Shown here piece by piece: positions 6,602 to 46,019 of a stretch of 46,396 bases of DNA (within the stretch, counting starts at the first letter, position 1; each line of letters starts with the position of its first letter). The position numbers and the translations under genes were made by a program. The stretch is from the IMG/VR virus record IMGVR_UViG_3300032287_001415, positions 1 through 46,396 of that record; one strand, written 5' to 3'. Origin of the DNA: a virus. The notes beneath the pieces were generated by a model. The model did no database searches. It was not told the origin of the DNA and worked only from the letters and a program-made list of their open reading frames with translations.

Positions 6602-7292
6602 TCAACTTACTACCGCTAATACATTTCAAGAATGGTTATCAGCCACTTCTGAACTAATTGCCGTTGCAAACAATCTCACAAACAATACCAGCGGTGGATT
6701 CTTAGCAAATTCTTCAATCTTTATTGAGGGAAGTGGTTCATCACTGAATGTTCGGAATCTTGCAAACATCAATACACTGCAAGCAAACTCATTCAATCTG
6801 ACTGGTAACGTTGCAACAATGAATGTAACCAGCAACGGTTACATTGGCGGTGATTTGTTTGTTTATGGTAATGTTACAATTAGCGGTAACGTATCTTTAG
6901 ATGAGATTGGATTTGATGATCTTTTAGTCAGTGGATCAGCAAACATCGTTGGTAATACCACGATGTCTAATACGACAATCAATTACGGAAATCTCAGTAC
7001 CGCAAATGTTGTTTACTTAGTAGGCTCATCAAACACAGCAATTTATGCGAATATTACTTCTGCATATTCTGTAGCACTCAGTGCAGGATCATATGCAAAC
7101 TCGGCATTCGTCCACGCAAACGCGGCATATCAAAGTCAGAATGCCACCGGACAATATGCAAATTCAGCGTTTACAGTAGCAAATGGCGCATTCATACACG
7201 CCAACTCTGGCTTCATTCAAGCAAACTCAGCATTTACTGCCGCTAATGCTGCGATAGATCAGACTGTAGCATTTTCAATTGCTTTAGGATAA
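6591..7292 (+). CDS. Short Ala-Asn repeat tail-fibre protein
   Basis: A 233-residue protein whose ATG lies inside the upstream gene (11-nt overlap). The N-terminal two thirds are beta-rich, with short glycine turns (GNVTISGNVSLDEIGFDDLLVSG). The last ~80 residues carry the repeats seen in the 1895-residue fibre gene at 18093-23780: AYQSQNATGQYANSAF, FIHANSGFIQANSAF. Both proteins end almost identically (AANxAID..VA..IALG). It is probably a short fibre or fibre-base subunit related to that long fibre. It has no late-promoter motif of its own and probably reads through from upstream. Structural role: likely; exact position in the virion: unknown. Confidence 0.7.
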   Translation: MAINQLTTANTFQEWLSATSELIAVANNLTNNTSGGFLANSSIFIEGSGSSLNVRNLANINTLQANSFNLTGNVATMNVTSNGYIGGDLFVYGNVTISGNVSLDEIGFDDLLVSGSANIVGNTTMSNTTINYGNLSTANVVYLVGSSNTAIYANITSAYSVALSAGSYANSAFVHANAAYQSQNATGQYANSAFTVANGAFIHANSGFIQANSAFTAANAAIDQTVAFSIALG

Positions 7293-7297
7293 ATAGA

Positions 7298-7305
7298 TAT
7301 AAATA
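7298..7305 (+). promoter_or_regulatory. T4-type late promoter (TATAAATA)
   Basis: An exact match to the T4 late consensus lies 20 nt before ATG 7326. If initiation is at the T4-typical distance (sixth base after the last A), the leader is about 15 nt and carries AAGGA at 7313-7317. A second, weaker copy (GATAAATA) sits at 7288-7295, over the stop codon of the preceding gene. Confidence 0.75.
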
Positions 7306-7325: not shown

Positions 7326-7652
7326 ATGGCTAACAATTTTAGATCAAGAGCAAACGTCAACATTGAAACGACAGGAAACACGATTTACACCTGTCCTTCT
7401 GCAACACAAACCACACTGATTGGTATGACGATTGCCAACAAATCAACCGGAACAGTGACCGCAAATATTCATCTTCGTCGGTCAGGCGTTGATTATGTTC
7501 TCATTGCAAATGTTCCAATTCTTTCTGGCTCAACATTGGTACCAATTGGTGGTGAACAGAAACTTGTCTTGGAAGCAGCAGACCAATTGAGAGCAAACTC
7601 ATCAACGAACAACACAATAGATATTATTGCTTCTCTGTTGGAGATATCATAA
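7326..7652 (+). CDS. Small beta-sandwich virion structural protein
   Basis: A 108-residue protein with AAGGA 8 nt before its ATG, first gene after a consensus late promoter. The pattern TIYTCPSATQTTLIGMTIAN, then LVPIGGEQKLVLEAADQLRA and a final IIASLLEIS, is one I recognise from small structural proteins of marine and freshwater T4-like phages. It looks like a single beta-sandwich that may decorate a fibre or baseplate. It opens a cassette of six small adhesin-like genes (7326-9794). No catalytic residues are seen. Virion association is inferred from family resemblance and position. Confidence 0.7.
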   Translation: MANNFRSRANVNIETTGNTIYTCPSATQTTLIGMTIANKSTGTVTANIHLRRSGVDYVLIANVPILSGSTLVPIGGEQKLVLEAADQLRANSSTNNTIDIIASLLEIS

Positions 7653-9857: not shown

Positions 9858-11108
9858 TTGGCATACATTGGGCAAAATTCATTACCGTTTGATCCGTTCA
9901 GATCAGCAGCGCCTGTTTCTGATGCTGATCGGTTTTCGGGTAATGCTTCTACGACAACATTTACATTATCACGTGCAGTGTCATTTCCAACAGATATTGA
10001 AGTGTTTGTTGAAAATGTCCAGCAAGAGCCTATTGTTTCGTACAGTGTTTCAGGCGCATCACTGACATTTACTGAAGCACCGCCAACAGGTACAAATAAT
10101 GTTTATGTTGTTTATCGCAATTATCAAACAGGCGCACAGATAACATTACCTGACGGTTCTGTTACTTACAACAAACTTGCAAACAATATTCGGTTATTTA
10201 CGACAGATAACTTCACCTCAAACGGTACTGTTTCTACATTCTCACTTTCTGAACAGCCTGCTGATGCAAACACAGTATTAGTCACAATTGATGGTATCGT
10301 TCAAAGAGCAACAGAACACTATGGTTTGTCAGGTAAAACAATTACATTTACTTCAACACCTGCATCAAACTCATTGATTTCAATTCGTCATTTAGGCTTT
10401 AGAACAACAACAACTGTCACAGCAATACCGCCAGGCACGAACATTTCAAATCCTGTGATTACCAATGGTATGACAGTAACAGGTGATGTTACCGTATCTG
10501 GTAATGTGACGATGAACCTGTTGAACTTTAGTTATATTGCATCAAATGATGTTGCATCGTTTACTGACATGCAGGGCGTTGCTGCTAACTGTACAACAGC
10601 ATCAGGAAATACATCAGTAACTTATCGGTCAAATACAGCAGCAATTTCTGTTGGTATGTTTGTTACTGGTGCAACAATCAATGTGGGTTCGGTTGTTACT
10701 TCAGTTGTCAATGCAAATACAATTACAATTTCATCTGCGGCTGCAAACTCATCAACAAATACAGCACTGACATTTTATACACCTAATAAATTATTAGTGT
10801 CACATGTTGCATCACCTGGTGTTGCAAAAGCATGGGTGAACTTTGATGGTACAGGAACAGTACGAATTCGTGGTGCATTCAATGTGTCCAGTATTACGGA
10901 TAACGGTACGGGCGCTTACACTGTGAACTTTACGGTTGCGATGCCAGATGTCAATTTTTCAGCAGTGGCTGCATGTGAAGATAATGGTGGGGCTTATGGT
11001 GCTTATTCTCAACAAGTGTCTTCCGCATCTTCAGTAAGAATTGCTACCAGTCGTCCAGGAACCGCTAATTATGACCAAAACAATATTGCCGTTGCCGTTT
11101 TCCGCTAA
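9858..11108 (+). CDS. Tail-fibre protein with KAWVNF tip module (copy 2)
   Basis: A 416-residue protein starting at TTG 9858, 6-8 nt after AAAAGGACA; the start gives the family-typical MAYIGQN. Residues ~25-95 (DRFSGNASTTTFTLSRAV ... TFTEAPPTGTNNVYVVYRNY) form a beta domain also seen at the start of the 12910 protein. A second copy spans residues ~115-175 (TSNGTVSTFSLSEQPADANT ... ISIRHLGF). A short triple-helix-like stalk follows (NPVITNGMTVTGDVTVSGNV). The C-terminal ~180 residues are the module shared with 9162-9794 and 16632-17387 (AKAWVNFDGTGTVRIRGAF), ending AVAVFR. It looks like a complete small fibre: N-terminal attachment, stalk and tip. Single-gene transcription unit with its own late promoter. 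Confidence 0.75.
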   Translation: MAYIGQNSLPFDPFRSAAPVSDADRFSGNASTTTFTLSRAVSFPTDIEVFVENVQQEPIVSYSVSGASLTFTEAPPTGTNNVYVVYRNYQTGAQITLPDGSVTYNKLANNIRLFTTDNFTSNGTVSTFSLSEQPADANTVLVTIDGIVQRATEHYGLSGKTITFTSTPASNSLISIRHLGFRTTTTVTAIPPGTNISNPVITNGMTVTGDVTVSGNVTMNLLNFSYIASNDVASFTDMQGVAANCTTASGNTSVTYRSNTAAISVGMFVTGATINVGSVVTSVVNANTITISSAAANSSTNTALTFYTPNKLLVSHVASPGVAKAWVNFDGTGTVRIRGAFNVSSITDNGTGAYTVNFTVAMPDVNFSAVAACEDNGGAYGAYSQQVSSASSVRIATSRPGTANYDQNNIAVAVFR

Positions 11109-23784: not shown

Positions 23785-23792
23785 AATAAATA
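23785..23792 (+). promoter_or_regulatory. Putative late promoter (AATAAATA) with almost no leader
   Basis: AATAAATA lies only 7 nt before ATG 23800 of the gp13 gene. At the T4-typical distance, initiation would fall at about 23798, giving a 2-3 nt leader and no ribosome-binding sequence. Confidence 0.5.
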
Positions 23793-23799
23793 GACAACT

Positions 23800-24753
23800 A
23801 TGGCTAAAATAAACACAAGACAACAATTCAAAGAATATTGCTTACGCAGATTAGGATGGCCTGTTCTTGAAATCAACGTAGATGATGATCAAGTAGAAGA
23901 TCGCATTGATGATGCGTTAGCTTTTTGGCGCGATTATCATTATGATGGCAGTGAAAAAATATTCATGAAGCATCAAATTACACAAGAAGATATTAGCCGT
24001 CAATGGATATATTGCCCAGATGCAGTTCAGTTCGTAATTGGTATAATGCCGTTCGATCAGTCAAATGCATCTATCAATATGTTTGACTTACGTTATCAAT
24101 TACGTTTGCACGATCTATATGACTTTACATCTGTTTCATACGTGTCGTATGAGATTACAATGCAGCACTTGCGTACACTGAATCTTTTATTCTCAGGTAC
24201 ACCACAGTTCCGTTTCAATCGTCACCAAAACAAAGTATTTTTAGATATTGATTGGACACGTGATGTTCAACCTGGAGATTTTGTAATCGTAGAATGCTAT
24301 CGTGTATTGAATCCTGATACGGTAACTCTTACAGGAACACTGTCTGGAGATCCATCGTCTAATACAATAACTGGATATGGCACAAAATTTGATCAAGAAA
24401 TAGTTGCTTTTGATTTTATCAATATTGGAAATGAATCTAAACAAGTTGGTAACATTGTATCTCCTACCAGTTTGACATTGATAGGACCACCAACATTAAC
24501 TCACAGCAATTCTACAGCAACGATATCTGGCACAACTGATTTATGGAATGACCGTTACCTGAAAAAACTTGCTACTGCTAAAATCAAACAGCAGTGGGGA
24601 ACAAACATGAAAAAGTTTGAAGGCATTCAAATGCCTGGTGGCGTAACACTCAATGGCCAAAAAATTTACGATGAAGCAACCGAAGAGATAGAAAAGATGG
24701 AAGAAGAAATCTATCAAATGGGTTCACTTCCTTCAGAAATATTTACTGGATAA
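23800..24753 (+). CDS. gp13: Neck protein gp13
   Basis: A 317-residue protein (T4 gp13 is 309). The sequence FKEYCLRRLGWPVLEINVDD, DDALAFWRDYHYDGSE, then FNRHQNKVFLDIDW is characteristic of gp13, which with gp14 forms the neck that closes the filled head and joins the tail. Residues ~178-245 (TLTGTLSGDPSSNTITGYG ...) look like an extra beta insertion before the conserved C-terminal helix (WNDRYLKKLATAKIKQQWG ... GGVTLNGQKIYDEA). It starts the gp13-gp17 unit, 3 nt before gp14. The start lacks a ribosome-binding sequence and sits directly behind a late-type motif. Confidence 0.92.
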   Translation: MAKINTRQQFKEYCLRRLGWPVLEINVDDDQVEDRIDDALAFWRDYHYDGSEKIFMKHQITQEDISRQWIYCPDAVQFVIGIMPFDQSNASINMFDLRYQLRLHDLYDFTSVSYVSYEITMQHLRTLNLLFSGTPQFRFNRHQNKVFLDIDWTRDVQPGDFVIVECYRVLNPDTVTLTGTLSGDPSSNTITGYGTKFDQEIVAFDFINIGNESKQVGNIVSPTSLTLIGPPTLTHSNSTATISGTTDLWNDRYLKKLATAKIKQQWGTNMKKFEGIQMPGGVTLNGQKIYDEATEEIEKMEEEIYQMGSLPSEIFTG

Positions 24754-27061: not shown

Positions 27062-27072
27062 TTGGAGAAATG

Positions 27073-27507
27073 ATGGAACAGTTAATAGAACAAATGAAAG
27101 TTATTCTTGGTACGAACTTTGGTTTGTATTTCAAAGCACACAATTTTCACTGGAACGTAGAGGGTCCTAACTTTGCGGAGTATCACAACTTTTTAGGTGC
27201 ATTCTACGAAGCAGTGTTTGACCAAACAGATTCAATCGCGGAACATATTCGTGCATTGGGTTCATATACTCCAACATCATTAGGAAGAATGATGGAGTTA
27301 TCAAAAGTCGTTGATTTGGTAGCCATTCCTTCACCGCTTATTATGATGAGTGAACTTGCAAATGATAACGATAAGTTTATCATGGAACTTCGTGCAGGAA
27401 TTGCACTTGCTGATGCTGCTGATGAACCAGCAGTAGGAAACTTTTTACAAGACATTTTAGATGCTCATCAAAAACACGGATGGATGTTGAAGAGTTTTAC
27501 AAGATAA
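27073..27507 (+). CDS. dps: Dps-like ferritin (DNA-protection/iron-binding protein)
   Basis: A 144-residue protein. Two ATGs occur at 27070 and 27073; the second is preferred because GGAGA at 27064-27068 is then 4 nt away. Numbering from the first Met, H27-W28-N29 in HNFHWNVEGPNF, H39, D54 and E58 align with the Dps ferroxidase ligands H51, H63, D78 and E82 of E. coli Dps. The residue equivalent to D67 is Gly43, so one ligand is missing. It lacks the Lys-rich N-terminal tail used by E. coli Dps to bind DNA. It lies between gp16 (9 nt) and gp17 (3 nt), so it is expressed with packaging proteins. It may protect DNA, bind iron or be packaged; activity is unproven. Confidence 0.88.
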   Translation: MEQLIEQMKVILGTNFGLYFKAHNFHWNVEGPNFAEYHNFLGAFYEAVFDQTDSIAEHIRALGSYTPTSLGRMMELSKVVDLVAIPSPLIMMSELANDNDKFIMELRAGIALADAADEPAVGNFLQDILDAHQKHGWMLKSFTR

Positions 27508-29198: not shown

Positions 29199-30887
29199 AT
29201 GGCATTTCAATTATCACCTGGAGTAAATGTATCAGAGATCGATCTGACTACAGTTATTCCTTCAGTAGGCACTTCTACAGGTGCTTTCGTAGGACCTTTT
29301 GCTTGGGGACCATGTGGCGAAGTTACTACTATTTCTGACGAAGTTCGTCTAGCAAGCACCTTTGGTAATCCAAACAGCGATAATTATGAATACTGGTTCT
29401 CGGCAGCAAACTTTTTAGCTTATGGTAATAATCTAAAAATCGTTCGTGCTTTTAATGCATCAACAACACTAAATGCAACAGCAAACGGAAGTGGTCTTCT
29501 GATTAAAAATCAAGATGACTATGTAGAAAATCATACAGGTTATTCAGCAAACTCTTACAACGGTTTTGGCGCACGTTGGGCAGGTGCTTTAGGTAACTCA
29601 CTCAGCGTTTCTATGGCAGATGCAAACTCATATAGCACATGGGCATATAAGACACAATTCACATCTGCTCCTTCTACATCATCATATGTTGCAAAGAAAG
29701 GCGGTTCTTTTGACGAAGTTCACGTAATTGTTGTTGACGAAGATGGTCTGTTTACAGGAACAAAAGGAACAGTTCTGGAAAAGTATCCTTTCGTTTCAAA
29801 AGCTTCTGATGCAAGAGATGACTCTGGTAACTCAAGTTACTATAAGAATGCTATTCAAAATCAATCTCAGTACATCTGGTGGCTGTCACACCCAACACAA
29901 AACACTACAGGTGGAACAGCTTGGGGTTCAACAGCAAATGCATCATCATTTGCAAACACAACTGGTAATGTATCATTCTCATTATCAGGTGGTGCAGATG
30001 GTACAGTAGGTACATCACAAATTACAACTGGTTGGGATAGATTTAAGAATGCGGAAGCAGTAGATATTTCTCTGTGCGTAACTGGTACAGGCAACTCTAC
30101 AATTGCAGCATACGTTATCGATAATATAGCAGGCACACGTAAAGACTGCGTTGCATTCGTTTCACCAACAAAAGCAAGCGTTGTTGACAATGCGGGTAGC
30201 GAAGTTTCAGACATTACTACTTTCCGCAACGGTCTAACATCTTCGTCATATGCTGTGTTGGATTCAGGATACAAATATCAGTACGACAAATACAATGATG
30301 TGTATCGTTGGATACCACTGAACGGTGACATTGCTGGTCTATGCGTAAGAACAGATCAAGAGCGTGACCCATGGTTCTCACCAGGTGGTTTAAATCGTGG
30401 CGTTATCAAGAACGTTGTAAAACTTGCTTGGAATCCACTAAAATCAGAACGTGATTCGTTATATTCTGTTGGCGTAAATCCTGTTGTTTCTTTCCCAGGA
30501 GAAGGCACAGTTCTGTTTGGTGATAAAACATTACTGAGCAAGCCAAGTGCATTTGATCGTATCAATGTTCGTCGTTTATTCATCACTCTTGAAAAAGCAA
30601 TTTCACGTGCAGCACGTTTCTCGTTGTTTGAATTTAATGATCAATTCACACGCGCACAGTTTGTTGCTCTAGTTGAGCCATTCTTACGTGACGTTCAAGG
30701 TCGTCGTGGTATCACTGATTACCGTGTTGTGTGTGACGAAACAAACAACACTGGAGAAGTTATTGATCGTAATGAGTTTGTTGGTGACATCTATATTAAA
30801 CCAGCACGTTCTATCAACTTCATTCAATTGAACTTCGTAGCAGTTCGTACGGGAGTATCTTTCAATGAAGTCGTAGGTGCGGCATAA
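29199..30887 (+). CDS. gp18: Contractile tail sheath gp18
   Basis: A 562-residue protein (T4 gp18 is 659). The N-terminus FQLSPGVNVSEIDLTTVIPS then GAFVGPFAWGP is diagnostic of T4-type sheath. The C-terminal domain (FDRINVRRLFITLEKAISRA, RFSLFEFNDQFTRAQF and YRVVCDETNNT) is the conserved sheath core that contacts the tube and transmits contraction. The middle (residues ~120-330) is variable and beta-rich, as in other sheaths with surface domains. It has its own late promoter and strong AAAGGAG. Highly confident. Confidence 0.97.
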   Translation: MAFQLSPGVNVSEIDLTTVIPSVGTSTGAFVGPFAWGPCGEVTTISDEVRLASTFGNPNSDNYEYWFSAANFLAYGNNLKIVRAFNASTTLNATANGSGLLIKNQDDYVENHTGYSANSYNGFGARWAGALGNSLSVSMADANSYSTWAYKTQFTSAPSTSSYVAKKGGSFDEVHVIVVDEDGLFTGTKGTVLEKYPFVSKASDARDDSGNSSYYKNAIQNQSQYIWWLSHPTQNTTGGTAWGSTANASSFANTTGNVSFSLSGGADGTVGTSQITTGWDRFKNAEAVDISLCVTGTGNSTIAAYVIDNIAGTRKDCVAFVSPTKASVVDNAGSEVSDITTFRNGLTSSSYAVLDSGYKYQYDKYNDVYRWIPLNGDIAGLCVRTDQERDPWFSPGGLNRGVIKNVVKLAWNPLKSERDSLYSVGVNPVVSFPGEGTVLFGDKTLLSKPSAFDRINVRRLFITLEKAISRAARFSLFEFNDQFTRAQFVALVEPFLRDVQGRRGITDYRVVCDETNNTGEVIDRNEFVGDIYIKPARSINFIQLNFVAVRTGVSFNEVVGAA

Positions 30888-30890
30888 ATA
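30883..30890 (+). promoter_or_regulatory. T4-type late promoter (CATAAATA) for tail tube
   Basis: CATAAATA overlaps the stop codon of gp18 and lies 22 nt before ATG 30913. AACAGGAGAAA follows as ribosome-binding sequence. Confidence 0.7.
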
Positions 30891-33222: not shown

Positions 33223-33426
33223 ATGAATATAAACGACATCATTAACAACATTGCTGCTGGAGATAACTTAGCGGCAAAAGAAAGTATAGAAAATGTCTTA
33301 TCAGCAAAAGCGTTCGATGCGCTCCAAGGCCGTAAGCAAGAAATCGCTTCAACTCTTTTTGGCGGGCAAGACCAAGAAGCTGAAGAAAACGCAAACAACG
33401 AAGATTCGGAAGAAATAAATCAATAA
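33223..33426 (+). CDS. gp67: Prohead core protein gp67-like
   Basis: A 67-residue acidic protein (T4 gp67 is 80). The N-terminal helix (INNIAAGDNLAAKESIENVL, then SAKAFDALQGRKQEIASTLF) corresponds in pattern to T4 gp67 (short helix, Asp-Leu-x-Ala-Ala). The rest is the expected acidic tail (QEAEENANNEDSEE). It is a component of the prohead scaffold, normally degraded by gp21. Position between gp20 and gp21 agrees. Its stop overlaps the next start by 1 nt. Confidence 0.8.
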   Translation: MNINDIINNIAAGDNLAAKESIENVLSAKAFDALQGRKQEIASTLFGGQDQEAEENANNEDSEEINQ

Positions 33427-35545: not shown

Positions 35546-35553
35546 TATAAATA
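35546..35553 (+). promoter_or_regulatory. T4-type late promoter (TATAAATA) for scaffold and capsid
   Basis: Exact consensus, 22 nt before ATG 35576. ATAAGGAGATATTC follows as a strong ribosome-binding sequence. It is the nearest late motif upstream of gp23 as well; no separate motif is visible before gp23. Confidence 0.75.
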
Positions 35554-36897: not shown

Positions 36898-38241
36898 ATG
36901 TATTTGTCTGAAAATCTACAAAACAAATGGGAAGGCGTCCTGGACCACCCAGACCTCCCAAAAATTGCTGATCCATACCGTAAAGCGGTTACAGCAGTTA
37001 TCCTGGAAAACCAGGCTACAGAAATGATCAAAGAATCTGGTATGCTGCAAGAAACAGGTTCACCAACAAACTTTGCTGGTACAGGCGGTTTTGGTGGTGG
37101 TGCTGCTGCTGCAGGCCCAGTTGCTGGTTTTGATCCAATTCTTATCAGCTTAGTTCGTCGTTCACTTCCTAACTTGATTGCATACGATGTTTGCGGCGTT
37201 CAGCCAATGACAGGTCCTACAGGCCTTATCTTTGCAATGCGTACACGTTACGCTGGTCAAAACGGTACAGAAGCATTCTACAACGAAGCTAACACAGCAT
37301 TCTCTGGTGCTAACGGCGCAATCGTTGCATCTTCAATGACAATCGCTGGTAACACAACAGATTATCTGTTTACTGGTAACGCTGCTCCTACAGGCGCAAT
37401 GACTACTGGTTCTGCTGAAGCATTGGGCGACGGCGCTGCTGGTAATACATTCCAAGAAATGGCATTCTCAATTGAGAAAGTTACTGTTACAGCACGTACA
37501 CGTGCATTGAAAGCAGAATACTCAATGGAACTTGCACAAGACTTGAAAGCAGTTCATGGTCTTGACGCAGAAACAGAATTGGCTAACATTCTGTCCGCAG
37601 AAATTCTTGCTGAAATCAACCGTGAAGTTATCCGTACAATCTACAAGATTGCTAAACCAGGTTGCCAAGCAGGTACGACAACACGTGGTGCATTCAACCT
37701 AGACACAGACTCAAACGGTCGTTGGATGGTTGAAAAGATCAAAGGTCTTGCATTCCAGATTGAACGTGAAGCAAATCAAATCGCTAAGACAACTCGTCGT
37801 GGTAAAGGTAACATCGTTATCTGTTCTTCAGACGTAGCTTCTGCTCTTGCGATGTCAGGTATTCTTGACTACAACTCAGCACTTGCTGGTCAAGTATCAT
37901 TGACAGTTGATGACACTGGCAATACTTTTGCTGGTACAATCTTCGGTCGTATCAAAGTTTACATTGATCCATATTTCCCAACAGGCTCAACATCTGAGTT
38001 TGCGGTTGTAGGTTACAAGGGTACTAACGCATACGATGCTGGTATGTTCTACTGCCCATACGTTCCTCTACAAATGGTTCGTGCAGTTGATACAGGTACA
38101 TTCCAGCCAAAGATTGGCTTCAAGACTCGTTACGGTCTAGTTGCTAACCCATTTGCTGAAGGCACTGACCAAGGTTTAGGCGCTCTTACAACACAGAGCA
38201 ACAACTACTATCGCGGATTTAGAATTGCGAACCTGATGTGA
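36898..38241 (+). CDS. gp23: Major capsid protein gp23
   Basis: A 447-residue protein (T4 gp23 is 521) behind TAAGGAGATAC. After the N-terminal propeptide (LQNKWEGVLDHPDLPKIADP, YRKAVTAVILENQ) come FDPILISLVRRSLPNLIAYD and VCGVQPMTGPTGLIFAMRTR, the classical T4-type capsid region. RALKAEYSMELAQDLKAVHG and KTRYGLVANPF also match. A likely gp21 cleavage site is LQE, after E52 (context GMLQE then TGSPTN), giving a propeptide shorter than the 65 residues of T4. It forms the hexamers of the head. A strong terminator follows. Confidence 0.97.
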   Translation: MYLSENLQNKWEGVLDHPDLPKIADPYRKAVTAVILENQATEMIKESGMLQETGSPTNFAGTGGFGGGAAAAGPVAGFDPILISLVRRSLPNLIAYDVCGVQPMTGPTGLIFAMRTRYAGQNGTEAFYNEANTAFSGANGAIVASSMTIAGNTTDYLFTGNAAPTGAMTTGSAEALGDGAAGNTFQEMAFSIEKVTVTARTRALKAEYSMELAQDLKAVHGLDAETELANILSAEILAEINREVIRTIYKIAKPGCQAGTTTRGAFNLDTDSNGRWMVEKIKGLAFQIEREANQIAKTTRRGKGNIVICSSDVASALAMSGILDYNSALAGQVSLTVDDTGNTFAGTIFGRIKVYIDPYFPTGSTSEFAVVGYKGTNAYDAGMFYCPYVPLQMVRAVDTGTFQPKIGFKTRYGLVANPFAEGTDQGLGALTTQSNNYYRGFRIANLM

Positions 38242-38280
38242 GTTAGAACCACTAACTTTATAATAACTATAAAGTGGATT

Positions 38281-38309
38281 GAGGGAGAAGAAATTCTCCC
38301 TCTTTTTTT
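38281..38309 (+). terminator. Rho-independent terminator after gp23
   Basis: Nine-base-pair stem GAGGGAGAA / TTCTCCCTC with loop GAAA, then seven T's (38303-38309). A weaker AT-rich inverted repeat (CTTTATA/TATAAAG within 38252-38278) precedes it. It ends the gp22-gp23 transcript. Confidence 0.95.
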
Positions 38310-38313
38310 GTCT

Positions 38314-38321
38314 TATAAATA
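38314..38321 (+). promoter_or_regulatory. Late promoter (TATAAATA) predicting a leaderless message
   Basis: Exact T4 late consensus 5 nt after the gp23 terminator and only 5 nt before ATG 38327. The usual start distance places +1 on the A of the ATG, and no ribosome-binding sequence is present. Confidence 0.7.
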
Positions 38322-38326
38322 CACAT

Positions 38327-38866
38327 ATGACAGCACTCAACAGAAACCCAATAAATCCAAATTCAATTCAACCTAACAAGTTTACGTTGAATTTTCCACG
38401 TGCGCCGAATCTACAATATTTTTCTCAAACAATTTCTTTACCTGGTATCTCTACATCAGAGATTCCGGTGTATAACCCATTTGTTGAGTTATATGCGCCT
38501 GGTGAGAAAACAATTTATGATGTACTAAACATTACATTTATTGTTGATGCTGAAATGTTAGCTTGGTTAGAAGTTCATAATTGGCTTCGTGCAATGACTT
38601 TTCCAACCGAATACGCAGAGTATCAAAATTTAGGTAAACTTTCTCAGTTTACCACAACACAAGCATCACCGACACCACAATATGCAGATGGTTCTGTAAC
38701 ACTTCTTTCTGCATCAAATAAACCATACTATCGATTTAACTTCAAAGATTTATTTCCTATTTCAATTTCTGGTTTTATTGTATCTTCCACTGATACTCCA
38801 GAATCAATTGTCACAGCAGATGCAACTTTCAGATTTACCTATTATGATGTAGAAAAATTATTTTAA
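38327..38866 (+). CDS. Tail-tube-like structural protein (gp19-related fold)
   Basis: A 179-residue protein. An in-frame TTG at 38279 lies within the terminator hairpin and is rejected; ATG 38327 gives MTALNRNPINPNSIQPNKF. The pattern (FTLNFPRAPNLQYFSQTISL then PGISTSEIPVYNPFVELYAP, DVLNITFIVDAEMLAWLEVH and a final DATFRFTYYDVEKLF) follows the strand order of tail-tube proteins such as gp19: ligand region, mid-strand and C-terminal F.YY strand. It is probably a tube initiator, tube-end or baseplate hub component. Marine T4-like phages often carry such a gene near gp23 (gp3 position). Specific role uncertain. Confidence 0.65.
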   Translation: MTALNRNPINPNSIQPNKFTLNFPRAPNLQYFSQTISLPGISTSEIPVYNPFVELYAPGEKTIYDVLNITFIVDAEMLAWLEVHNWLRAMTFPTEYAEYQNLGKLSQFTTTQASPTPQYADGSVTLLSASNKPYYRFNFKDLFPISISGFIVSSTDTPESIVTADATFRFTYYDVEKLF

Positions 38867-41227: not shown

Positions 41228-42742
41228 ATGTCAAAAGTGGTGACATTTGTTGTACCCAGCAGTGCTGCACAAGCATATCAGGCACTTGCAAATAAGTATT
41301 CTGCTATTGAACCTCCAACATGGGCATTGCTTCTTGCTAATGCTGTTCGTGTTGCTGGTCATGATCCTTGCATCTTAGACTTTGACGCTGAACCAACAAG
41401 CGTTGAAGATGCAGCAGAAAAGATTGCAAGCACAAAAACTGATATAGCAGTCTTTGTTCTTTACGGACAAAATCCAAACTCAGGCACCACGATGATGATT
41501 GGTGCATCAAAACTAGCAAAGCAACTCAAAGCATCACATCCTAATATCAAAATTGCTTTTATTGGTTCACACGCATCTGCTTTACCACACCAGACAATTA
41601 GTTTTCCATTTGTTGATTTTGTATTCATCAATGAAGGTGTTTATGGTTTGTTAGATTTACTTCAAACGAACCTGGAAGATGAGTTGCACAAAGTATCCAG
41701 TTTAGTATTTAAGAAAAATGGTTTTGCAGTGAATGGTGCACCAGGCAGAATTGTACAAACTGCTGACATGGATCGTGTAATGCCTGGTTATGCATGGGAT
41801 TTACTGCCGACTAATGGTAAACTCTTAGATAAGTATCGTTCTCATTACTGGCACAACTATTTTAAAGATGAAGGTCGTACACCGTTTGCTGCCATATCCA
41901 CATCACTAGGTTGTTCATTCGGTTGTAATTTCTGTATGATCAACATTGTGAATCGTACATCACATAGTCCTGCTGTAGCATCCGATTCAAGAGGTATGCG
42001 TTTCTGGTCACCCGAATTAATGCTCAAAGAGTTTGAATATCTTTGGGAGTCTGGCGTAAGAACCGTGCGACTTACCGATGAGATGTTTTTTCTAAACAAA
42101 AAATATTACGTTCCTATTCTTCAGGGTCTTGTTGATCGTGGAATAAAATTTAACTTTTGGGCATATGCACGTGTTGACTCTGTTCGCAAAGATCAACTTG
42201 AGTTGTTCAAAAAAGCTGGCGTAAATTGGCTTGCACTTGGTATTGAAGCAGGAAATCCACAAGTTCGTTTAGAGATTGATAAAGGTCGTTTCAAACAAGT
42301 TGATATTCATGATGTTGTTCAAGACATTAAAGATGCAGACATAAACGTATTAGGCAATTACATGTTTGGGTTTCCAGAAGATACACAAGAAACAATGCAA
42401 GAAACTTTAGACCTTGCACTTGAGTTGAACTGTGAACATGCAAACTTCTATGCAGCAATGGCATTACCAGGCAGCCCGTTGTATATGGAAGCAGTTAATA
42501 ATAAATGGGAATTACCACAAACGTTTGATGAGTTTGCGTTTCTTTCATATGACTGTAAACCACTCAGAACAAACTCATTAACTGGTGCTGAAGTATTGAA
42601 GTTTCGTGATGATGCTTGGCACAAATACTTTTCACATGAACCATTCTTGAATCTTGTTGAAAACAAATTTGGAATTGATTCACGTAAAAATATTGAAGAG
42701 ATGTCCAAGATTAGATTGAAAAGGAAAATTCTAGGTGACTAA
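41228..42742 (+). CDS. B12-binding radical SAM enzyme
   Basis: A 504-residue protein, ATG 41228 about 7 nt after AAAAGGATT. Residues 1-145 form a cobalamin-binding-type Rossmann domain (LLANAVRVAGHDPCILDFDA, DIAVFVLYG, IAFIGSHASALPH) without the classical DxHxxG histidine. C229, C233 and C236 (CSFGCNFC) are the CxxxCxxC ligands of the 4Fe-4S cluster that binds S-adenosylmethionine; the barrel continues with VRTVRLTDEMFFLNKKY, INFWAYARVDSV-like strands and LALGIEAGNPQVR. Such enzymes often methylate unreactive carbons or rearrange skeletons. In this operon a sugar substrate is plausible, but not shown. It overlaps the next gene by 8 nt. Confidence 0.88.
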   Translation: MSKVVTFVVPSSAAQAYQALANKYSAIEPPTWALLLANAVRVAGHDPCILDFDAEPTSVEDAAEKIASTKTDIAVFVLYGQNPNSGTTMMIGASKLAKQLKASHPNIKIAFIGSHASALPHQTISFPFVDFVFINEGVYGLLDLLQTNLEDELHKVSSLVFKKNGFAVNGAPGRIVQTADMDRVMPGYAWDLLPTNGKLLDKYRSHYWHNYFKDEGRTPFAAISTSLGCSFGCNFCMINIVNRTSHSPAVASDSRGMRFWSPELMLKEFEYLWESGVRTVRLTDEMFFLNKKYYVPILQGLVDRGIKFNFWAYARVDSVRKDQLELFKKAGVNWLALGIEAGNPQVRLEIDKGRFKQVDIHDVVQDIKDADINVLGNYMFGFPEDTQETMQETLDLALELNCEHANFYAAMALPGSPLYMEAVNNKWELPQTFDEFAFLSYDCKPLRTNSLTGAEVLKFRDDAWHKYFSHEPFLNLVENKFGIDSRKNIEEMSKIRLKRKILGD

Positions 42743-43334
42743 ACAAGAACTTATCGCATTTGAAGATAAGATTGCTGATCATTTCAACAATGGCAGAATT
42801 CGTGCGCCAATTCATTTGTACTATGGCAATGAAAATGAAATGATAAAAATCTTCAAAAACATTCGGTCAATAGATTGGGTGTTTTGTTCATGGCGTTCTC
42901 ACTATCAATGTTTGTTGAAAGGTGTGCCGCCAGATGTTTTAGAAAAAGATATTTTGGAAGGCAAGTCAATCTCACTTTGCTATCCACAATACAACATATA
43001 CTCATCAGCAATTGTTGGTGGCAATATTCCTATTGCAGTAGGAACTGCGATGGCAATGAAACGTAAAAAGATTGACACAAAAGTATACTGCTTTGTTGGT
43101 GACATGACATCAGAATCTGGTATTTTCATGGAAAACTTTAAGTATTCTATCCAACATGAACTGCCTATTAAATTTATTATTGAAGATAATGGCAAATCTG
43201 TTTGCACTGATACAAATAAAACTTGGGGTGTATCAGAATCAACATATAAGCATTGTGAACACGAATCCATTTATTACTATGAATATGAAACAAAATATCC
43301 ACATGCTGGTGCTGGAATGAGGGTACAATTTTGA
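42735..43334 (+). CDS. Thiamine-diphosphate enzyme, E1-alpha/transketolase-N-like subunit
   Basis: A 199-residue protein from GTG 42735, 7 nt after AAGGAAA, inside the 3' end of the radical SAM gene. CSWRSHYQCLLKGVPPD (with H56) resembles the R.HG.ALA.G segment of E1-alpha. D123 (GDMTSESG) and N152 (EDNGKS) are the Mg/thiamine-diphosphate ligands of the GD-x(26-28)-N motif; the usual third-position Gly is Met. It is shorter than normal E1-alpha (about 320-360 residues). It presumably pairs with the next gene product to make an active site at their interface. The TGA overlaps the next TTG start by 4 nt. Substrate unknown. Confidence 0.85.
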   Translation: MTKQELIAFEDKIADHFNNGRIRAPIHLYYGNENEMIKIFKNIRSIDWVFCSWRSHYQCLLKGVPPDVLEKDILEGKSISLCYPQYNIYSSAIVGGNIPIAVGTAMAMKRKKIDTKVYCFVGDMTSESGIFMENFKYSIQHELPIKFIIEDNGKSVCTDTNKTWGVSESTYKHCEHESIYYYEYETKYPHAGAGMRVQF

Positions 43335-43861
43335 AATACTTTGACGAACTAAAACGTGCAATGGAAATGCTTGCTGGTGATCCAAGAGTTATCTTTATGG
43401 GTCAAGCAGTTGAATATGCTGGTACAGCAATGTCTAACACACTAAAAGATGTTCCTAAAGAACAATTGTTAGAAATGCCTGTGTTTGAAGATACACAAAT
43501 GGGCATGACATTGGGTTTAGCACTTGCTGGTTATATTCCTGTGAGCATTTATCCACGTTGGAATTTTTTAGTGTGTGCAACAAATCAGCTGGTCAATCAC
43601 ATAGATAAAATTACGATGATGTCCGATTACAAGCCAAGAATTATCATAAGAACTGGCATTGGTTCAGAAAGACCTTTACATCCACAACATCAACATGTCG
43701 GTGATTATACAGATGCGTATAGACTTCTTTGCCCAAATATTGATATAATTAGGTTAGAAGAACCTAGACATGTGTATGACGCATACTGCACAGCGTACTT
43801 GAGAAGAGATGGCAAAGCAACCATATTAGTAGAGTATGGTGATTATTATAATGAAAAATGA
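43331..43861 (+). CDS. Thiamine-diphosphate enzyme, E1-beta/transketolase-Pyr-like subunit
   Basis: A 176-residue protein from TTG 43331, overlapping the alpha-like gene by 4 nt. E53 (EMPVFEDTQMGMTLGLALAG) is the conserved glutamate that activates the coenzyme. YPRWNFLVCATNQLVNHIDK matches the F.F...DQ..N segment of E1-beta, and IIIRTGIGSERPLHPQHQH the R....G....QHS segment. It ends after this pyrimidine domain; the C-terminal transketolase domain of ordinary E1-beta (about 325 residues) is absent. With the alpha-like subunit this is a minimal, two-chain enzyme. Likely reaction: decarboxylation or transfer of a two-carbon unit. It overlaps the kinase gene by 4 nt (ATGA). Confidence 0.85.
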   Translation: MKYFDELKRAMEMLAGDPRVIFMGQAVEYAGTAMSNTLKDVPKEQLLEMPVFEDTQMGMTLGLALAGYIPVSIYPRWNFLVCATNQLVNHIDKITMMSDYKPRIIIRTGIGSERPLHPQHQHVGDYTDAYRLLCPNIDIIRLEEPRHVYDAYCTAYLRRDGKATILVEYGDYYNEK

Positions 43862-44841
43862 TTATATCTAAAACACCGTATCGTTTATCTTTATTTGGAG
43901 GTGGCACAGATTATCCAGCGTGGTATGAAAAACACCCATCAAAAATAATCTCTGCTGCTATGGCACATTATTGCTATATAAGTTTGAAGAAGTTACCGCC
44001 GTATTTTGAACATGCTAATCGGATCATCTATTCAAAGATAGAAACTGTCAATGACATATCTGAGATAGAACATCCTTCAGTAAGGGAGTGTTTAAAGTAT
44101 CATGATATATCTAATGGTATTTCTATTAGCCACGACGGCGACCTTCCTGCTCGTTCTGGCATTGGATCATCTTCTGCATTTACTGTTGGACTGATTCACG
44201 CTTTACAAACATATCAGAAAAAATTACCTACAGCATATGGTCTTGCTTCAAGTGCTATTGATGTAGAGCAGAATTTTATTGGTGAATCTGTGGGTGTGCA
44301 AGATCAGATTACTGCTGCTTATGGTGGTATCAATGTTATTGAACTCTCTAAAGATAACATCAAAGTTTCAACTCTAGACATTCCGTTTCAGTACGAAGAT
44401 ACTTTAGAAAAACATATCATGTTAGGATTTTCTGGCATTGATAGATTGTCAGATGTTCACGCTAAACAACAAGTTGAAAATATCAAATCAGGTAAGTCAG
44501 AAAAATATTTGAAAAAAATTCGTGACTTAGCAGATGATGCTTATTGTGCTTTTCTAGGAGAAGAACCAATAGAACAAATCGGTGCGCTTCTTGATATTCA
44601 GTGGCATTACAAAAGACAACTTACTAATGATATTACAACCGAATACATAGATAACATTTATCAAAAAGCAAGAGCAGCGGGTGCATATGGCGGTAAACTT
44701 ATGGGTGCTGGTGGTGGTGGTTTCTTTATGTTTCTTGCATCTCCAGAAAAACATGATATAATAAAACAAGCAATACCTGAAATAAACATATGGGTGCCAT
44801 TCAAATTTGATTACAGTGGCAGCACGATAATTATGGAGTGA
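43858..44841 (+). CDS. GHMP kinase, HddA-like (heptose-7-phosphate kinase type)
   Basis: A 327-residue protein starting in the ATGA overlap with the previous gene. The N-terminus (IISKTPYRLSLFGGGTDYPA) is diagnostic of the HddA branch of GHMP kinases, which phosphorylate D-glycero-D-manno-heptose 7-phosphate at C1 on the route to GDP-heptose. The ATP-binding loop is PARSGIGSSSA (97-107), the catalytic Asp is probably D149 (VGVQDQITAAYGG), and the third motif is KLMGAGGGGFF near residues 280-290. Related kinases act on other sugars, so heptose specificity is inferred. The isomerase GmhA, phosphatase GmhB and nucleotidyltransferase HddC are not in the window. It is coupled to the ColD-like gene. 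Confidence 0.85.
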   Translation: MIISKTPYRLSLFGGGTDYPAWYEKHPSKIISAAMAHYCYISLKKLPPYFEHANRIIYSKIETVNDISEIEHPSVRECLKYHDISNGISISHDGDLPARSGIGSSSAFTVGLIHALQTYQKKLPTAYGLASSAIDVEQNFIGESVGVQDQITAAYGGINVIELSKDNIKVSTLDIPFQYEDTLEKHIMLGFSGIDRLSDVHAKQQVENIKSGKSEKYLKKIRDLADDAYCAFLGEEPIEQIGALLDIQWHYKRQLTNDITTEYIDNIYQKARAAGAYGGKLMGAGGGGFFMFLASPEKHDIIKQAIPEINIWVPFKFDYSGSTIIME

Positions 44842-44843
44842 TA

Positions 44844-46019
44844 ATGAAGTATCCTTTAATGTCCGACAATATTACTAGAGAAGATTTAGATTTGGTAATA
44901 GAACACCTAAAAAAAGATAATCCAAAACTTACAAACGGTCCAGAGTGCCGTGCTTTTGAAGAAGCATGGAGTAAATGGTTGGGCGTAAAGTATTCAGTCT
45001 TTGTAAACTCTGGTGCTTCAGCAAATCTCTTGTCAATGACAATGTTGAAGATCAAACATCCAGAAGGTGGTGAAGTTATCGTACCACCATTCACATGGGT
45101 ATCTGATATTGCATCTATCATTCAATGCGGTTTTACTCCGGTGTTTGTTGATATTGATTTAGATACATTGGGTATGAATACTGACGGTATCATCAATGCC
45201 ATTACAGATAAGACACGTGCAGTGTTTCTTACGTATGCACAGGGCTTTGATTGCTTGACAGACAAGCTTTTGGAAGAATTGAGAAATAGAAATATTCCTT
45301 TGATTGAAGATGTGTGTGAATCTCATGGTGCAACACACAATCACAAACTACTAGGTAGCTTTGGTTGGATGTCAAACTTCTCATTTTATTTTGCACATCA
45401 CATGTCAACGATTGAAGGCGGTATGGTTTGTACAAATGATGAAGAAGTTTATCACACAGTTCGTATGCTTCGTTCACATGGTATGGTACGTGAGTGTGGC
45501 TCAGAAGATATGTCTAATGAGTACAAGAAAAAATATCCAGATTTGAATCCTGATTTTATCTTTGCATATCCAGCATACAATATGCGTAATACTGAAATTG
45601 GTGGTATACTTGGTCAAAATCAGTTGAAACATTTGGATGAAAATGTTACACTAAGAAATAAAAATCTGTTCCACTTTTTGTCTAAGTTAGATCAGAGAAA
45701 ATATAAAGTAGATTTCAGATTGATAGGTTGTAGTAATTATGCATTCAATATTGTATTACAACATGACTACTGCACAGAATTTTTTGTAAACAGATTGATG
45801 GGTAAGATGCGTGATGAAGAAATTGAATTCAGAAGAGGCTCTGCTGGTGGTGGTAATCAGTTACGCCAACCATATTTGAAAAACATTGTGCCAGAGAAAC
45901 ACTACAAGAATTTTCCAAATACAGATCATATGCACTTCTATTCTTTCTACATCGGAAACTATCCAACGCTGAAAGAATCACAGATCAACGAAATCGTAAA
46001 CATTTTGAATAGGGTATAA
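44844..46019 (+). CDS. ColD-like PLP-dependent sugar 3-dehydratase (DegT/DnrJ family)
   Basis: A 391-residue protein. GTG 44838 is possible, but ATG 44844 has GGAG at 44835-44838 (5 nt). The DegT fold is clear: VNSGASANLL, IIVPPFTW-type segment VIVPPFTWVSDIA, PLP-nitrogen Asp D156 (IEDVCESHGA). The residue where aminotransferases have the PLP Lys is H185 (FSFYFAHHMSTIEGG). This is the arrangement of ColD, the GDP-4-keto-6-deoxymannose 3-dehydratase (His188), and of the E1 3-dehydrase family. Hence it probably removes the C3 hydroxyl of a 4-keto sugar nucleotide rather than transferring an amino group. One nucleotide separates its stop from the next gene. Confidence 0.9.
   Translation: MKYPLMSDNITREDLDLVIEHLKKDNPKLTNGPECRAFEEAWSKWLGVKYSVFVNSGASANLLSMTMLKIKHPEGGEVIVPPFTWVSDIASIIQCGFTPVFVDIDLDTLGMNTDGIINAITDKTRAVFLTYAQGFDCLTDKLLEELRNRNIPLIEDVCESHGATHNHKLLGSFGWMSNFSFYFAHHMSTIEGGMVCTNDEEVYHTVRMLRSHGMVRECGSEDMSNEYKKKYPDLNPDFIFAYPAYNMRNTEIGGILGQNQLKHLDENVTLRNKNLFHFLSKLDQRKYKVDFRLIGCSNYAFNIVLQHDYCTEFFVNRLMGKMRDEEIEFRRGSAGGGNQLRQPYLKNIVPEKHYKNFPNTDHMHFYSFYIGNYPTLKESQINEIVNILNRV

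Follow-up and report, generated by a model that had tools for sequence, protein, structure and literature searches.

The window, meaning the whole 46,396-nt stretch of viral DNA analysed here, carries a gp23-type major capsid protein gene directly upstream of a gp3-type tail-completion or tube-terminator gene, with uvsY and uvsW as the downstream neighbours of gp3 (Table 1). The gp23 product has 64% identity to gp23 of Cyanophage P-TIM40 (tblastn). The 179-residue gp3 protein matches 488 deposited phage records; among 60 matches listed, most are annotated as gp3, tail completion and sheath stabiliser, tail tube, or head-proximal tip of the tail, and the protein also matches phrog_45 (tail tube). 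One scan of bacterial genome contigs with gp3 as the query found no bacterial relative.

Table 1. Late-promoter boxes, genes and terminator of the window discussed in the text.
Feature	Position	Strand	Remarks
T4-type late promoter box TATAAATA	38314..38321	+	Predicted -13 to -6, from sequence and conservation; numbering as in the available part of PMC2988020
5-nt spacer CACAT	38322..38326	+	Predicted positions -5 through -1, the last a pyrimidine
gp3-type tail-completion / tube-terminator gene	38327..38866	+	Start codon begins at A 38327, which is also the predicted +1
Major capsid protein gene (gp23 type) preceding gp3	36898..38241	+	SD aaggagat before the gene
Intrinsic terminator after gp23	38281..38309	+	Hairpin 38281-38302 and T-run
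Late box of gp13, AATAAATA	23785..23792	+	7 nt before ATG 23800
gp13-type gene (head-tail adaptor)	23800..24753	+	phrog_211; near-leaderless by the same reasoning as gp3
Late box of scaffold gene gp22 (contrast)	35546..35553	+	22 nt before ATG 35576; SD taaggag
Late box of tube gene gp19 (contrast)	30883..30890	+	22 nt before ATG 30913; SD aggag

The capsid gene is followed by a terminator-like hairpin with a stem of 9 pairs (-15.7 kcal/mol, z -3.3) and a T-run. As the initial annotation had described, a perfect copy of the octamer TATAAATA lies just beyond it and ends 5 nt upstream of the gp3 start codon (ATG, 38327-38329). No Shine-Dalgarno sequence (SD) is present in 38310-38326 or between the hairpin and the ATG, where the best match found by script is 3 nt, and no sigma-70-like site was found in 38200-38450. 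The T4 late box is numbered from -13 in the available part of PMC2988020; with a spacing of 5 nt this places +1 on the A of the ATG, in agreement with the annotated expectation that the usual start point falls on this base, which here is a predicted start. In bacteria, genes whose start codon follows a -10-like box by about 10-12 bp have been taken as leaderless (PMC3160421, in the portion available). The first T of the gp3 box is 13 nt before the ATG, in keeping with that definition, and the absence of an SD at gp3 agrees with the second property expected of a leaderless gene. Two properties of a T4-type late promoter are present too: the box is TATAAATA or a close variant, and it stands upstream of virion genes (gp3, gp13, gp22 and gp19 types).

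On sequence and comparative grounds, the box at 38314 very probably acts as a late promoter of the gp55 (T4) type and starts a leaderless gp3 message on, or within one or two bases of, the A of the AUG. The gp23 message would stop at the terminator just upstream of the gp3 box, and if it ends there gp3 needs a transcription start of its own. With RNA polymerase starting at the A of the AUG, or one or two bases off, the gp3 message would carry neither a 5' leader nor an SD and would depend for its translation on leaderless initiation, the ribosome recognising an AUG at the 5' end. We infer use of the box, the exact start base and leaderless translation of gp3 from the arrangement of the junction and its comparison with relatives. 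The octamer itself is not enriched in the window (4 found versus 3.08 expected, sd 1.89, from shuffles), so the case for the box rests on the conservation of its placement. The first 60 nt of gp3 are predicted to be unstructured (0 kcal/mol), and are not more weakly structured than shuffles of the same composition (mean -1.1, z 0.9).

A scan of the window for NATAAATA and NCTAAATA boxes at most 60 nt before the start of an open reading frame of at least 60 aa gave 12 distinct late-box starts. The annotated view that the phage uses leaderless late messages applies to gp3 (5 nt) and, with a small difference in distance, to gp13 (7 nt), but not to the other ten, which lie 20-45 nt from their boxes; all ten (seven ATG and three TTG) agree with the SD consensus over 4 nt or more. 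For the start at 33223 the script names TAAG as the matching stretch, and AAGG is present too. The window phage is thus one with ordinary leadered late genes plus a second class of late starts. The genes at 9858, 12910 and 17488 are late-box genes with an SD and TTG as their first start codon. Tandem late boxes, GATAAATA and TATAAATA, occur at 7288-7305, upstream of the ORF at 7326.

The gp13 gene had been put forward as a second independent example. Its box is real, but the 7-nt distance makes it near-leaderless rather than leaderless. In a survey of the best 80 of at least 594 gp13 matches, together with the window, 55 distinct junctions were obtained: the box is 7 nt from the ATG in 27, 6 nt in 2, and 31 and 47 nt in one each, and in 24 there is no late box within 60 nt. 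We therefore set aside gp13 as an example equal to gp3, as 29 of these 55 loci are at 6-7 nt and the other 26 are without a near box; a near-leaderless promoter at gp13 appears from these junctions to be common but optional.

Conservation of the spacing, the check proposed in the initial annotation, was assessed at gp3 loci collected by IMG/VR searches with four gp3 proteins (three of them using the best 80 of 111, 141 and 281 matches, and one giving 15), to which two deposited phages and the window were added. Of the 248 loci, many of them repeats, two had no start and one too little upstream sequence; the remaining 245 reduce to 128 distinct junctions. The box is exactly 5 nt from the ATG in 94 of these, 6 nt in 3 and 7 nt in 18, giving 115 of 128 at 5-7 nt; the poor conservation named in the initial annotation as grounds for refutation was thus not seen. 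No junction among the 128 has a distance of 8-17 nt, eight have the box 18-27 nt away, and five have no late box within 60 nt. The 94 junctions at 5 nt comprise 40 distinct 13-mers of box and spacer, and when the loci are clustered at 95% protein identity, 47 of the 69 clusters have 5-nt members only. The base at -1 in the 94 is T in 89, C in 5 and never a purine; the box core TAAATA is invariant in them, this core being part of the search pattern. The eight distant junctions count against the leaderless reading; a clear SD is present in three of them (L077, L199 and L117), GGAA or GGGA only in four, and neither in L231. L117, the gp3 locus of Melnitz-2 (2460-2500), reads TATAAATA-GTAGT-ATG like the leaderless class, but its ATG does not share the gp3 frame; the gp3 start there lies 16 nt further on, behind AAAAGGG.

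The constancy of this distance bears on the possibility, in our view very unlikely, that gp3 has no transcript of its own and depends on read-through from gp23 or on an operon, with the box and its spacing inherited and without meaning. The chance-level frequency of the octamer in the window would agree with this, as would an upstream ORF overlapping gp3 by ATGA in some relatives with no box at gp3. Four of the five boxless loci (L021, L181, L249 and L252) have a small ORF before gp3 that itself lies 5-6 nt behind a box, and in the last three of these its stop codon overlaps gp3 as ATGA; upstream of gp3 at the fifth, L011, no ORF of 60 aa turned up in the script's scan. Against this possibility, a strong terminator precedes gp3 in the window, and the lengths flanking the box vary freely on the same tree on which the distance from box to ATG hardly varies. 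On a gp3 tree of 79 proteins (97% representatives and Mosig), the length from T-run to box changed at least 30 times among the 56 short-spacing rows with a T-run near the box, versus at least 7 changes in the length from box to ATG, only among 5, 6 and 7 nt, for the same rows; 31 of the 76 inner branches of this quick tree are weak, which makes both counts rough minima, and the two were taken on one and the same tree. The same arrangement is also found at gp3 of two isolated SAR11 phages, and so beyond the clade of the window: HTVC008M, the gp3 protein of which is 26% identical to that of the window, has the 5-nt arrangement, and Mosig has GATAAATA-TTAGT-ATG at its annotated start.

Eight loci (L002, L009, L049, L050, L078, L188, L201 and L229) carry a homing-endonuclease-type gene inserted between gp23 and gp3. 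In all eight the gp3 box remains at 5 nt, with the stop codon TAA of the inserted gene inside the box, and in seven of them the inserted gene starts 5 nt behind a box of its own; the contig of L201 begins inside the gene. Profile tests of the inserted gene in the contigs of L050 and L078 (G017 and G022) gave phrog_655, with Pfam NUMOD3 in one of the two and a sub-threshold HNH match in the other. Five further loci share the opening residues of a tested endonuclease gene, and L201 shares its last ones.

The identity of the start codon and the nature of the A/T-rich stretch were considered with the same material. A frame started by TTG opens at 38279, and the true gp3 start could in principle lie there or further downstream, leaving ATG 38327 unused. 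This frame passes through the terminator, however; residues M1, T2 and P8 are invariant in an alignment of nine gp3 sequences that begins at ATG 38327, and the deposited gp3 starts of Mosig and HTVC008M are at the corresponding ATG, making another start scarcely credible. It is also highly improbable that the stretch is a translation element of a longer message, such as an S1 or standby site, rather than a promoter. Its position directly before a start codon without an SD would suit such an element, but the same octamer family lies 13-45 nt before leadered late genes in the same genomes, most of which have separate SDs, and the stretch varies in the way T4-type late boxes do (NATAAATA and CTAAATA, with NATAAATA also given for cyanophages in the available part of PMC2984593).

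A reading closer to the one we favour, which we regard as unlikely, is that the promoter is real and the message has a very short leader of 1-3 nt, so that it is not strictly leaderless and start selection is perhaps loose. The gp13 distance and the gp3 junctions at 6 and 7 nt point this way, and all 18 of the 7-nt gp3 junctions have A as the fifth base after the box, a position at which A is favoured in the leadered promoters of the clade and which would also allow a 3-nt leader. Against it, the 5-nt majority always has a pyrimidine as the last spacer base, followed by the A of the ATG, and the sixth base after the box in leadered late promoters is a purine in 26/26 cases in Melnitz-2 and 89% of 28 in Syn9; the T4 figure is 78% of 31. 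In the leadered late promoters of the window clade (n=61) the sixth base is most often T (49%) and the fifth most often A (67%), and the usual start in these promoters may be 5 rather than 6 nt after the box, which speaks against +1 at the sixth base. No member of the 5-nt gp3 class has A as its fifth base, an absence that agrees with the start predicted for the leaderless gp3 message, on the A of the ATG.

Genes other than gp3 share the short spacing. Six contigs of relatives were scanned, two of them (G004 and G005) near duplicates by gp23, and their short class includes a Dps-like ferritin gene and a gp8 type, both at 5 nt, gp25 and gp2 types at 4 nt, two genes of 78 and 87 aa, and the endonuclease. 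The window has a Dps-type DNA-binding gene (phrog_3636) at 27070-27507, just before a 543-aa ORF, and its counterpart in the relative G010 is ferritin-like; the window copy has an SD and no late box, whereas the relatives' copy is 5 nt from one. Elsewhere in the window, 41228-46019 holds a sugar-metabolism-like block with a B12-binding radical SAM protein, a GHMP kinase, a DegT-type aminotransferase and two TPP-dependent E1 or transketolase-like pieces.

In whole-genome counts with one row per ATG start near a late box, exact 5-nt starts make up 12/29 in HTVC008M (P 1.5e-14 versus uniform spacing) and 6/38 in Mosig (P 3.4e-5 versus uniform spacing). They number 3/38 in Melnitz-2, 1/33 in T4 and 1/35 in S-PM2, where the single case has an SD, and are absent from KVP40 (0/40), Syn9 (0/32), S-SCSM1 (0/44) and P-TIM40 (0/39); HTVC008M has no starts at 4 or 6 nt. 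Taken contig by contig, the window clade gives modest P values (1.4e-1 to 2.3e-4), and weight is placed on conservation. Ten permuted heptamers of the same composition gave no 5-nt peak, with some hits at 4-7 nt in A/T-rich genomes. Plain pattern counts exceeded those of a reversed-pattern control in HTVC008M (18 versus 4) and S-SCSM1 (8 versus 2) and were not clearly above it in the other eight records; the subsequent scan of ORF starts found nothing at 4-7 nt among the 44 of S-SCSM1, nor is there any among the 39 of P-TIM40. Deposited start codons coincide with all 11 of the 5-nt ATGs of HTVC008M that were compared (9/9 in bases 1-50,000, plus 75559 and 75830), the twelfth, at 142360, being outside the comparison. 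By annotation these 5-nt genes include gp3 tail completion, gp2 DNA end protector, head closure, two baseplate wedge genes and the baseplate tail tube cap; since curli-like, cyclase and oxygenase genes are also among them, the class in this phage is not one of virion genes alone. SD-like matches occur just upstream of short-class starts in 2/4 rows of G010 and 2/15 of HTVC008M, where they would lie upstream of the predicted transcription start.

A homologue of gp55 is encoded in 10 of the 13 records searched, including eight relatives of the window; none was found in the 46-kb window fragment itself, in G013 or in G021. The gp23 tree places the window lineage (nine rows) apart from Mosig, Melnitz-2 and HTVC008M. 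A single origin of the arrangement with the SAR11 phages was set aside on account of this separation, ancestry and convergence both being possible. These comparisons are best read as late transcription of a leaderless kind in two or more Kyanoviridae-like lineages. Two properties of the gene starts were also compared. Leaderless genes do not begin with sequence richer in CA (3.59 versus 3.49 CA per 45 nt, no real difference), and their mean folding energy of -2.55 (n=32) versus -3.70 kcal/mol (n=70; P 0.0075) comes from a single unplanned test on pooled, partly related genes, so that weaker structure at leaderless starts offers weak support.

Late transcription in T4 is a textbook system, the messages of which are usually leadered and have SDs. 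The arrangement described here resembles it (gp55 / gp33 / gp45) in its box TATAAATA with the variants NATAAATA and CTAAATA, in the position of the box before virion genes and in the presence of gp55 in relatives. It differs from T4, KVP40, Syn9, S-PM2, S-SCSM1 and P-TIM40, in which most start-near boxes are 13-45 nt off, in having a class of genes at exactly 5 (or 4, 6 or 7) nt. A leaderless message of lambda is that of cI, a single repressor gene. Here too a phage message is expected to begin at its AUG, but unlike cI, the arrangement extends to a number of late structural genes and to an endonuclease gene that has been inserted. Leaderless initiation in lambda is noted in the available part of PMC3160421, as are the bacterial leaderless (TA-led) genes, which the gp3 junction resembles in lacking an SD and in having a -10-type box roughly one turn of the helix ahead of the start codon; unlike in those genes, the box here is of the phage late-sigma type rather than a host -10, and the genes are T4-like virion genes. 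Phage transcripts are described as often leaderless in the text available of PMC5312081. No report of leaderless late messages in T4-like phages was found in titles and abstract openings of the open-licence papers listed, in part the top 10-20 matches, and in the accessible parts of PMC2704228 and PMC7892664 the word leaderless occurs in the reference lists only. The parts are known, and their combination was not found in the open-licence papers listed.

Taken together, the observation made at the gp23-gp3 junction is correct, comparison lends good support to its interpretation as a leaderless late start, and the finding extends past the window. As a more tentative proposal, which we would not yet put at even chances, leaderless late transcription may be a standing mode in T4-like phages of heterotrophic aquatic bacteria (the window lineage and the SAR11 phages), not seen in four cyanophages scanned whole. 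It would serve several virion genes (gp3, gp2, gp25 and gp8, joined in HTVC008M by genes for head closure and the tube cap), with the promoter passing to genes inserted behind it, and by way of leaderless initiation it may favour the messages of the phage late in infection. HTVC008M and Mosig, which share the 5-nt class, are SAR11 myophages, and the prediction of late promoters in pelagimyophage genomes was unsuccessful according to the available part of PMC7029224; the position of the box relative to the start codon may be one reason. If a large group of aquatic relatives of T4 does start some of its late messages on the AUG, the search for promoters and the calling of start codons in such phages would need to be redone, the missing late promoters of pelagimyophages may be recovered, and leaderless translation of virion genes could be tested directly in the cultured SAR11 phages.
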